Source: an uncultured Methylococcaceae bacterium
GTDB taxonomy: Bacteria > Pseudomonadota > Gammaproteobacteria > Methylococcales > Methylomonadaceae
Assembly: GCA_903917345.1 (NCBI GenBank)
Contig: CAIXAE010000006.1
Coordinates: 1 to 64,000 of the forward strand
DNA length: 64,000 nt
Direction: 5' to 3'
The notes under the pieces are model-generated. The model was not told the origin of the DNA. It did not search any database and saw only the letters and a list, made by a program, of their open reading frames with translations. Position numbers and translations under genes: made by a program. Of the stretch, positions 19,541 to 64,000 are shown piece by piece (positions within the stretch are counted from its first letter, which is position 1; every line of letters starts with the position of its first letter).

Positions 19541-20131
19541 ATGGAAGAGCTATTTTTAGAATTGCTTAAGGAATATGGTTATGTCATTTTGTACCTTTGG
19601 GGCATTCTTGAAGGTGAAATGGGCCTCATTATGGGAGGCATCCTGTCTCATACAGGAGATCTGCAATACTTAATGACCATATTTGTGGCTGGATTAGGTG
19701 GCTTTACCGGCGATCAGATTTATTTTTATGTGGGTCGATTTAATAAAGGCTATATACAGCGCAAACTTCAAAAACAACGTCTTAAATTTGCCATCGCACA
19801 TTTGTTGTTAAAGAAATATGGTTGGCCTATTATTTTTGTTCAGCGTTACATGTATGGGCTACGTACAGTAATTCCTATGTCAATTGGCATCACTAAATAC
19901 TCGGCCAAAAAATTCGCTATCATTAATCTTTTAAGCGCTTGGGTTTGGGCGGCAATTACTGTGACGCCTGCTTACTTTTATGGTGCAGAGATTTTAGAGT
20001 TATTGGGTTACGCAAAAGCCCATTGGTATTTTGCTTTACCCATTGCCGGTGGATTTCTTTACGGCTTGTATTACTACTTCAATAAACTTGAGATGTATTT
20101 CTTAGAGAAGAGAAAAGCACGCTTTCAATAG
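19541..20131 (+). CDS. DedA-family membrane protein
   Basis: A 196-residue polytopic inner-membrane protein of the DedA/SNARE-associated family, members of which act as undecaprenyl-phosphate or phospholipid flippases and support proton-motive-force and envelope homeostasis. Landmarks are the N-terminal reentrant region WGILEGEMGLIMGGILS, GFTGDQIYFYVGR, and the conserved arginine/glycine stretch VQRYMYGLRTVIPMSIG. The exact substrate is not deducible. It follows the sdh operon at 111 bases, far enough for its own promoter, and has its own strong terminator. Confidence 0.85.
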   Translation: MEELFLELLKEYGYVILYLWGILEGEMGLIMGGILSHTGDLQYLMTIFVAGLGGFTGDQIYFYVGRFNKGYIQRKLQKQRLKFAIAHLLLKKYGWPIIFVQRYMYGLRTVIPMSIGITKYSAKKFAIINLLSAWVWAAITVTPAYFYGAEILELLGYAKAHWYFALPIAGGFLYGLYYYFNKLEMYFLEKRKARFQ

Positions 20132-20164
20132 TTGCTTTCAGTCATAAGAAAACATCTCTAAACA

Positions 20165-20198
20165 AAAAAGCCTTACATGAAGTTGTAAGGCTTTTTTT
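20165..20198 (+). terminator. Intrinsic terminator of the DedA gene
   Basis: Stem GCCTTACA (20170-20177) / TGTAAGGC (20184-20191) with a six-base loop, flanked by A5 on the left and T7 on the right. The symmetrical A/T flanks could work in both directions. Confidence 0.88.
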
Positions 20199-20262
20199 AT
20201 GTCTGTTAATAAGGGGAGAGTCTTTTAAATTAACCCTATATGTTATGAAATCAAATATTCAA

Positions 20263-20751
20263 CATATCTTATCAATCACTTATGATGTGAACTTAAACTG
20301 ACAAGGTATAAATATAGTAAGTTGTAGTGTCTGATTGACCTAATGAAATATTAAAAAAATAATTTGAGATATTAAATTAAAGCGATGTGATATATATAAT
20401 AATAGATTAGATATAAAAAGAGGCGTTAACAGTATAAAGAATGTGGCTTTTGATATTAAAATTTGATGATTTCATATCAAAAAGACAGCTTTAGATACTA
20501 CATCTGGTCGAATTGATATCTTAAAGAAAAGTTTAGATATTAAAAGTGCTGTTATTGATTTGAGGTCGGTAAAATCAGATATCAAAAAAGGCAAACTTTA
20601 TTTCAAGAAGTTCAGTTTAGATATCAAATCATGACGAATTCATATCATAAATACAACTTAAGATATTAATCTCCGTTGTATTGATATCATAAGCTGGAGC
20701 TTTAATATCAATACGATGTAAGTTGATTAATAAACTGATGGTTTTGGTATT
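20263..20751. repeat. Array of ~24 degenerate palindromic units with exact 21-bp period
   Basis: The gap between the dedA terminator and the nadB stop (20199-20757) holds no credible gene. Instead, a GATAT(C/T)AAA-like core recurs every 21 bases without a phase slip, for example at 20368, 20389, 20410, 20452, 20473, 20494, 20515, 20536, 20578, 20620, 20641, 20662, 20683, 20704 and 20746; weaker matches fill the other 21-base steps back to 20263. The centre of the consensus, TTTGATATCAAA, is a perfect 12-bp palindrome; the remaining nine bases of each unit vary freely. Counting the 20 units from 20347 by hand, T at unit position 3 is present in all and A at position 2 in 18. Reading the array as heptads (D-I-K-x-x-x-L) gives many stop codons, so it is not an intact gene. 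It looks like spaced protein-binding sites on one face of the helix (two turns per unit); that role is inference. Confidence 0.85.
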
Positions 20752-20757
20752 AAAAGC

Positions 20758-22359
20758 CTAGGGTTTAAGAATGGTATTGGCGGGTGGTTTAGTATTATCG
20801 GTTTCAGGATAATCTAATGTGTAATGTAGACCACGACTTTCTTTGCGTTGTAACGCACAGCGGATGATTAACTCCGCAACAATCACTAAATTACGTAACT
20901 CTAACAAATCGCTGGTCACTCTAAAGTTACCGTAATAGTCATTGATTTCTTTTTTGAGTAATTCCACGCGGTTCAGCGCTCTTGTGAGGCGTTTGTTGGT
21001 TCTAACGATGCCGACGTAGTCCCACATAAAATGTCTTATTTCATTCCAATTATGCGAAACCACAACTTCTTCGTCTGAGTCGATAACTTGCGACTCGTCC
21101 CAATCTGGTATGGTGCAGTTTGTTTGAATGTGGGGTAGTTTCTTTAAAATATCTTCACTGGCGCGTTCAGCAAAAACCAGGCATTCGAGTAAAGAGTTAC
21201 TCGCCATTCGATTGGCGCCGTGTAATCCAGTACAAGCCACTTCCCCAACGGCATAGAGATTCTCGATATCGGTACGCGCGTAATTATTGGTAATAACACC
21301 ACCGCAGGTGTAATGAGCCGCCGGCACCACGGGGATAGGTTGTTTAGTGATATCTATATCAAACTCAAGACACTGTTTATAGATGGTGGGGAAGTGTTCA
21401 ATAATAAATTCGGCCGGTTTGTGGCTGATATCAAGGTAAACACATTCAATACCCCGTTTTTTCATTTCATGATCGATCGCTCTTGCTACGATGTCTCTGG
21501 GGGCTAATTCGCCTCGCGGATCAAATTTGTGCATAAAAGAAGAGCCGTCAGCCAGCACTAATTTACCGCCTTCACCTCTTAATGCTTCGCTGATTAGAAA
21601 GTTTCTGGCTTCTGGATGATATAAGCAAGTCGGATGGAATTGCATAAATTCCATGTTGCTCACTCGACAGCCTGCTCGCCAAGCTAAAGCAATGCCGTCT
21701 CCCGTTGAACTGTGTGGATTGGTGCTATAGATATAAGCCATATTGGCGCCACCGGTTGCTAAGACGACGATCTTAGCTTTAATGGTTTTAACGTGGCTTG
21801 AATTTGCATCGAGCACATAAGCGCCGATGACTTGTTTTTGTGTGGCGTTGTCTTGTGTGTGGGTGATTAATTCAACAACACTGTGGTTTTCTAATAAAGT
21901 AATTTTTTTATGTTCTTTGGCTCTTTCAATTAAAGAAAGAGAGACTGCTTTACCCGTAGCATCTGCCGAATGCACAATTCTGCGATGCGAGTGCCCACCT
22001 TCACGGTTTAAGTGTAACTGGACTTCGCCGGCTTGATTCTGTTCCTCAGTAAACACAACGCCTTGTTGCAATAACCACTCTATGGAACTTTTTCCATGAG
22101 AGACAGTCAATCTGACAATATCGGTATCACATAAGTCCGCACCGGCATCTAGAGTGTCGTCGATATGAGATTCTAATGAATCACCTTCGTCAAATACGGC
22201 AGAGATACCGCCTTGGGCGTAATAGGTACTGCTAGAAGTTAAAGCAAATTTAGATAAGACGGCAATGTTATTGGTTTGTTCAGCCAGTCTAAGAGCAAGA
22301 CTAAGGCCGGCTCCACCGCTACCAATAATTAGGACATCATAATTAATTGAGTTAGGCAT
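20758..22359 (-). CDS. nadB: L-aspartate oxidase
   Basis: FAD enzyme that oxidises L-aspartate to iminoaspartate, the first step of NAD synthesis (with NadA). The 533-residue chain has the dinucleotide motif GSGGAGLSLAL, the TYYAQGGISAVF loop shared with fumarate reductase flavoproteins, the MEFMQFHPTCLYHP active-site segment and HGANRMASNSLLECLVF. The C-terminal helical domain is complete. It is divergent from rpoE, the conserved order nadB/rpoE-rseA of gammaproteobacteria. Its stop codon abuts the last unit of the 21-bp array. nadA and nadC are not in the window. Confidence 0.95.
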   Translation of the reverse strand: MPNSINYDVLIIGSGGAGLSLALRLAEQTNNIAVLSKFALTSSSTYYAQGGISAVFDEGDSLESHIDDTLDAGADLCDTDIVRLTVSHGKSSIEWLLQQGVVFTEEQNQAGEVQLHLNREGGHSHRRIVHSADATGKAVSLSLIERAKEHKKITLLENHSVVELITHTQDNATQKQVIGAYVLDANSSHVKTIKAKIVVLATGGANMAYIYSTNPHSSTGDGIALAWRAGCRVSNMEFMQFHPTCLYHPEARNFLISEALRGEGGKLVLADGSSFMHKFDPRGELAPRDIVARAIDHEMKKRGIECVYLDISHKPAEFIIEHFPTIYKQCLEFDIDITKQPIPVVPAAHYTCGGVITNNYARTDIENLYAVGEVACTGLHGANRMASNSLLECLVFAERASEDILKKLPHIQTNCTIPDWDESQVIDSDEEVVVSHNWNEIRHFMWDYVGIVRTNKRLTRALNRVELLKKEINDYYGNFRVTSDLLELRNLVIVAELIIRCALQRKESRGLHYTLDYPETDNTKPPANTILKP

Positions 22360-63615: not shown

Positions 63616-63711
63616 TAATTTTGGGGGGCTTTTGTAAGTAAATTGGTTGGGTAGGTGTATGAGTGAAAGAGTGCTGTATTAAAGTGAATCAATAACTTAT
63701 TGATGTGCCTG

Positions 63712-63957
63712 ATGTTCTATAAAACCCGCCGGATAAATTTTTTTACGGGGGGGGATAGATACATAACCGGGGTGGATTAATTTCTTCACGGGTGGAATGA
63801 TATATAAGTTGGCTGGAATGTTTTCATTACGGGAGGATAGCCACGTAACTGGGGTATATTATTTTCATTACGGTAGGATAGATACGTAACTGAGGGAGAT
63901 TATTTTCATTACGGGAGGATAGGTGCATAACTGGGAGACATTACTCTCTTTATAGGG
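63712..63957. repeat. 41-bp degenerate tandem repeat array
   Basis: From the kinase stop to the window end (63616-64000) no gene is found. A unit starting GGATAG recurs at 63753, 63794 (as GGAATG), 63835, 63876 and 63917, always 41 bases apart; a sixth, poor copy starts near 63712 and decay is seen after 63957. The best-conserved part is TTTTCATTACGGGA at the right end of each unit and a CGTAACTGGGG stretch in the middle. The period is not a multiple of three, so it is not coding. Function unknown. Confidence 0.75.
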
Positions 63958-64000
63958 GAGGTTGTCGCTAAAGTGAAGGTATAAAATATCAAGTTAAGCG

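Follow-up and report, generated by a model that had tools for sequence, protein, structure and literature searches.

A phased palindromic array between dedA and nadB of a Methylococcaceae bacterium, probably the orphan half of a dispersed gene-satellite element

The stretch of 64,000 nucleotides analysed here (hereafter the window; contig CAIXAE010000006.1 of assembly GCA_903917345.1, positions 1 to 64,000) belongs to the genome of an uncultured Methylococcaceae bacterium (G000), which comprises 2.48 Mb in 45 contigs. Searches with its NadB protein assign the genome to the Methylobacter-like Methylococcaceae; of the named relatives, Methylobacter psychrophilus matches best, with 85% NadB identity. 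Between a dedA-like gene and nadB the window harbours a regular row of short palindromes, surrounded as follows:

19541 to 20131, plus strand: dedA-like gene, left flank, outside the element (open reading frame; name from the first reading)
20164 to 20197, plus strand: terminator-like hairpin with a T run, between dedA and the array
20237 to 20756, no strand assigned: array, probably an orphan, of 25 units of 21 bp with core TTTTGATATCAAAA and a short variable spacer
20758 to 22359, minus strand: nadB, right flank (open reading frame and relatives)

The first-pass annotation had described about 24 units in strict 21-bp phase at 20263 to 20751. The array proved slightly longer, with 25 units from 20237 to 20756, and all 24 of its spacings are 21 bp as called by a chain-finding script that penalises other spacings and is thus biased towards 21. 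Hand counts over the 20 units from 20347 could be reproduced exactly (unit position 3 is T in 20, position 2 is A in 18 and position 5 is T in 18). Indeed, in a period scan of the whole window (400-bp pieces, 100-bp step, 11 periods between 17 and 25 bp) the five top values all start between 20100 and 20500 and all have period 21. Tandem Repeats Finder made no call at the array, because its units are too divergent. Terminator-like sites number two between 20000 and 20900, against 0.3 expected.

When the same locus was searched in relatives, the array was recovered at dedA/nadB of a single other genome (G029), the alignment of the two copies showing internal losses of exactly 21 and 126 bp. In G021 the DedA protein is 100% identical, yet the dedA/nadB gap measures 121 bp and holds no array; the gap of G011, likewise devoid of an array, measures 95 bp, and in many other relatives dedA and nadB are non-adjacent within the stretch examined. 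Because only G000 and G029 carry the array and the gaps of G021 and G011 are this short, insertion at the site appears likelier than loss, and the idea that the array is a constant part of this site was rejected.

Other copies of the motif are dispersed over the genus. A four-unit sequence model, built from 46 segments, detects exactly two clear loci in G000, i.e. the window array and a second TTTTGATATCAAAA locus on another contig (C10). At E<=0.01 it matches 15 of the 35 genomes from the genus, twelve with E below 1e-5, which leaves 20 of the 35 with no array of this motif at this threshold. A three-unit pattern allowing up to three mismatches matched 12 of 151 relatives, all from one genus, while the reversed-pattern control gave 0 matches; in a 369-genome sample of the class, under stricter filters, the array model matched the window's genome only. 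Among 32 loci examined, 24 at different positions in 11 genomes carry an array of the TTTTGATATCAAAA motif with a chain score above 100, and the remaining eight have a lower chain score or none. Each of the 11 genomes possesses one to four such long arrays of 11-25 units. The 24 arrays contain 444 units, whose spacings, under a scoring that favours 21, are 21 bp in 410 of 420 cases, 20 or 22 bp in seven and 42 bp in three. The link to convergent gene ends drawn in the first-pass annotation dissolves in this larger set, since sister arrays sit between genes in every orientation and convergent pairs are not the sole context. Two same-motif arrays (L165 on G011:C259 and L171 on G033:C8) have recently been homogenised to near-identical units, which indicates that units spread by duplication.

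Built from 250 unique units of 16 arrays, the unit matrix shows nTTTTGATATCAAAAn flanking a central TA, and it correlates with its own reverse complement at 0.984, which bears out the palindromic core that had been read from the window array. Information is highest in the central RTAY and not in the tracts, and the spacer is G+C-richer than the core. Covariation between half-sites of this motif is positive only at the central TA, with significant anti-correlation in two pairs; among 25 further symmetric arrays, 217 half-site pairs gave a mean z of -0.07, with 17 above 2 and 17 below -2. Symmetry without stem-like covariation fits half-sites in DNA. As in the operators of homodimers, the sites are dyad-symmetric and stand in helical register, which makes them candidate protein sites.

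An intact gene for a protein of 204 amino acids (the partner gene) adjoins seven of the 24 arrays and points into the array, with about 84-168 bp between gene end and array start. Beside one further array (L171) the gene is cut by the contig end, beside another (L213) only a C-terminal remnant is left (HMM positions 168-203 of 204), and in five cases the shortness of one flank precludes a verdict. The other ten, including that of the window, have no partner gene in at least 500 bp readable on both sides. Around the window array no profile match occurs within 1.5 kb, and none of the 17 partner-profile matches of G000 (fragments included) falls inside the 64-kb window. The partner gene is present in 25 of the 35 genus genomes, with no copy at E<=1e-5 in the other ten; its profile matches 14 of 151 genomes and three of 44 genera in a sample of the order, and the window's genome alone in a 398-genome sample of the phylum. 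It evolves under purifying selection (dN/dS 0.07-0.38 in six pairs). In G007, two loci (L172 and L173) are 89% identical copies of one array, with the partner gene beside one of them only.

The C-terminal half of the partner protein is an FN3 domain, as indicated by a profile match to titin FN3 (E 1e-15), by Pfam fn3 in 15 of 40 family members at E<=1 (best 2.7e-6), and by an AF2 model with pLDDT 87.6 and FN3 matches in Foldseek. The FN3 part alone was matched among the structures listed, with no relative of the N-terminal helices. Similar FN3 proteins may also exist in Bacteroidota. At E<=0.001 the linked gene copies scanned have no Pfam match, and four partner copies gave no NCBIfam match and no convincing match in PHROGs. 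With a mean net charge of -1.4 and a mean pI of 6.5, partner proteins range from neutral to slightly acidic; the cognate protein encoded on C10 has charge +4 and pI 9.1. Near-neutral charge is atypical of DNA binders and counts mildly against the partner as binder. Residues 145-156, in an FN3 loop region, are the most variable stretch of the alignment and a candidate for specificity. Relatives of the partner gene were found neither in viral contigs nor in plasmids (one protein query each), nor in phages (one protein query), where another search gave one weak partial match at E 0.5. A phage origin was rejected, as the sole pattern match in viral contigs turned out to be a coding repeat within a phage-like contig, and viral contigs yielded no partner relative.

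The pairing of gene and array recurs across the gene family. In a search by expectation maximisation (EM), an array scoring above 140 flanks 42 of 58 distinct gene copies on one side, compared with scores of 60-107 in 18 control pieces of the window and 65-101 on the opposite flank of 41 of the 42; the control pieces were run with two periods and one region each, the genes with five periods and two flanks. The remaining array (L262) scores high on either side, and its 39-unit chain may represent coding periodicity. Among periods of 19-23 bp, 21 was best in 35 arrays, 20 in five and 22 in two. No array above the EM threshold was found for 16 of the 58 copies, seven of which are without one flank. 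Autocorrelation over periods 13-30, with z-scores from 15 shuffles each, likewise detected a periodic flank in 40 of 58 gene copies, located upstream only in 26, downstream only in 12, downstream with the upstream flank missing in one, and on both sides in one. Of these 41 flanks, 40 are best at 20-22 bp and the last at 13.67, a third of 41. Dyad symmetry is significant at p<=0.01 in 25 and at p<=0.05 in 30 of the 42 arrays. Which side of the gene bears the array, upstream or downstream, is specific to the clade. Genera of a second taxonomic family in the order also show gene-array pairing, with periods of 21 and 22.

The motifs differ among paralogue groups, within one genome too; examples are gTTTTAG...taAAAC, TTctTT..c..gaatgaA and AAG.AATta..aTaATT.CTt. 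Where proteins are more than 80% identical (four pairs), motif similarity is 0.82-0.97. It averages 0.55 at 60-70% protein identity, and 0.30-0.39 below 60%, which was taken as background. Some pairs at 60-75% identity fall to 0.21-0.33, which may reflect a genuine switch of motif or a poor fit of the model to arrays with a 20.67-bp period. By the measure used, the motifs of three paralogues diverge strongly from those of array-sharing relatives to which they are 65-75% identical, in part because that period is poorly captured. Within arrays the core is substituted more slowly than the spacer (258/1525 versus 214/756 in six array pairs, p 6e-10), in a comparison that uses the C10 array (L163) twice and in which distant pairs may have been aligned by the motif itself; the window and G029 alone give p = 0.054. 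Base composition may contribute to this contrast, as AT-rich cores may simply mutate less. On contigs C40, C36 and C24 of G000 (L254, L255 and L256), partner genes are followed downstream by arrays with other motifs, which have a 62-bp unit (three times 20.67) on C40 and a period of 20 on C36 and C24.

Gene and array together behave as an insertion of 1.2-1.3 kb. For example, the second TTTTGATATCAAAA array of G000 lies with a partner gene between ftsK and trxB (G000:C10:21934-22988; about 2931-3989 of L163). The gap between these divergent genes measures 153-174 bp in 23 of 26 readable genomes, 270 and 372 bp in two, and 1415 bp in G000, because gene and array sit there. In G013, both flanks of this site are 97% identical to those of G000, and between them lie an array and a different gene; of the partner gene, just the 5' flank and the first codons are present. 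That the gene was lost while the array stayed is the likeliest reading but not the sole one, since the arrays of G013 and G000 are only about 75% similar, in pieces. Three copies in different surroundings (G016:C303, G032:C118 and G032:C51) have in common about 1.16 kb that begins shortly ahead of the gene and extends to the array end, and differ in their flanks; between G016:C303 and G032:C51 homology is confined to the stretch from the 5' flank of the gene to the end of the array. The cysG and citG sites hold, depending on the species, gene and array or only the array, and the break coincides with the junction of the two; most of the relatives are draft genomes, in which repeats can yield chimeric contigs, and this applies to the cysG and citG breaks as well. 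No clear target-site duplication was seen by eye. The window itself harbours a second periodic intergenic array at about 63690-63975 (Tandem Repeats Finder: 63821-63933, 2.8 copies of a 41-bp unit, 41 being 20 + 21); no partner gene was found around it in 62500-67500, and it looks like another orphan with a different motif.

Several known systems resemble these arrays in part. Partition centromeres (ParB/parS, parC, tubC) share with them the rows of symmetric or phased dimer sites and the diversity of motifs between systems, but the linked protein here is unrelated by profile, and no ParA-like, ParB-type or tubulin-like gene occurs in the flanking ORFs (those nearest) scanned by Pfam. The centromere, nucleoid or roadblock role entertained in the first-pass annotation found no direct backing, as three Pfam scans of flanking ORFs returned no ParA, Rep or other partition gene. 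The iterons of plasmid origins, about 20-22 bp in length, are likewise helically phased repeats beside the gene of the presumed binder; by contrast, the arrays described here are chromosomal, consist of palindromic units and have many paralogues per genome, and neither the linked protein nor the flanking ORFs scanned has a Pfam match to a Rep initiator. In wrapped operators of the Lrp/AsnC type, dimers occupy successive sites about two turns apart, but the present arrays are far longer and the linked protein is not Lrp-like. CRISPR and TIGR arrays are regular arrays next to a protein gene as well, from which those studied here differ in their degenerate palindromic core, short spacers and period of 20-22 bp; no Cas gene is among the flanking ORFs scanned, and Pfam gives no Cas or Nop match for the linked protein. 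Finally, REP/BIME elements with their RAYT genes are dispersed intergenic palindromes with a linked gene in the genome, and with gene-less orphans too. RAYT, however, is a Y1 (HUH) transposase, whereas the partner here combines a helical bundle with FN3, and no Y1 match was obtained with Pfam on the linked genes and 40 family members or with NCBIfam and PHROGs on four. Moreover, REPs are described as reaching more than 100 copies per genome (PMC2817692), as opposed to one to four long arrays per motif and genome, an exact two-turn phase and paralogue-specific motifs here. In searches of the openly accessible journal literature, we found no description of such arrays.

It is the partner gene family and the diversity of its motifs, both invisible to the first reading, that alter the picture of the window array most. 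We consider it probable that this array is an orphan, representing the array half of a small dispersed gene-satellite element in a copy devoid of the gene, because no partner gene lies near it and because the array of G013 appears to outlive its gene. A complete element would consist of a gene of about 204 codons (helical bundle and FN3) and an adjoining satellite of about 12-30 units of 20-22 bp. The observed association of gene and array, two-turn phase, dyad symmetry, divergence of motifs, insertion as a unit, and likely gene loss beside a surviving array carry this reading. Judged from their sequences, the arrays are most likely rows of homodimer-binding sites aligned along a single DNA face: each unit would be the site of one homodimer, and the 25 sites of the window could carry a cooperative protein filament. 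The partner protein is possibly the binder, each paralogue group perhaps reading its own motif. The protein encoded on C10 would then be the candidate trans-acting binder of the window array, or the array may be idle. Autoregulation, insulation or persistence of the element are candidate roles for such a filament. A more far-reaching proposal, which we put forward tentatively and consider somewhat doubtful, is that a genome may hold over a dozen protein-satellite pairs that are orthogonal to one another, in which helical-bundle/FN3 proteins would form a new class of sequence-specific DNA binders, each assembling a filament on its private array of 12-30 two-turn dyad sites, with the pair moving and diversifying as a unit and orphans being read in trans.

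Alternatively, a host factor, e.g. a nucleoid protein or an Lrp-like octamer, might bind the arrays while the 204-amino-acid protein merely travels along with another job. We regard this as unlikely: a near-neutral partner with no recognised DNA-binding fold, together with ten arrays that have readable flanks and no adjoining gene, speaks for it, but a single factor would impose a single motif, whereas motifs differ among paralogue groups within one genome and track the protein at more than 80% identity. Chances are smaller that the array mainly serves as the terminus of a mobile element for a putative recombinase and lies idle between moves. Copies in different contexts do lose their homology at the outer array end, and the element was inserted as a unit. 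The array is nevertheless one-sided in nearly all gene copies, the linked protein has no transposase fold, no clear target-site duplication was apparent by eye, and ordinary element ends need far fewer than 12-30 sites.

An action as RNA, with the array transcribed into tandem hairpins, has a low probability. The array folds better than its shuffled versions (z -2.9, two of 100 shuffles being as good), but self-complementary cores alone would give such a value, the most conserved bases, the central TA, would fall in the loop, and half-sites show no positive covariation except at that TA, with two pairs anti-correlated; a search of Rfam with the array returned 13 weak matches, all below the gathering scores. 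Intrinsically curved DNA is very improbable as an explanation. The unit matrix does alternate T-tracts and A-tracts at 10 and 11 bp, a spacing suited to phased-A-tract curvature, but other gene-linked arrays keep the two-turn period with motifs other than A-tracts (e.g. CTGTGCa.GC..Gca), and the information peak at RTAY lies outside the tracts. Finally, a decayed heptad-coding repeat, which 21 bp (seven codons) and a stop-free stretch of 54 codons in one frame might suggest, is ruled out by the in-frame TAA that many sister arrays hold in the core (GATATCTAA, D-I frame) and by the dyad symmetry of 0.984, quite apart from stops in all six frames of the window array, family arrays with periods of 20 and 22 bp, and longest translated pieces without a Pfam match, so that the first-pass view of a helically phased palindrome array acting at the DNA level, not an old heptad repeat, stands.

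If the reading of the window array as an orphan of a gene-satellite element is right, it reveals a type of bacterial mobile element whose gene and private satellite DNA travel and diverge jointly, and would be a bacterial counterpart of satellite DNA that has a dedicated binding protein. It would provide the first functional handle on a protein family without a name that reaches up to about 18 copies per genome, and a ready set of protein-motif pairs for studying the evolution of DNA-binding specificity. Even if the partner protein does not bind, the occurrence of so many chromosomal arrays in strict two-turn register next to a single gene family demands an explanation.
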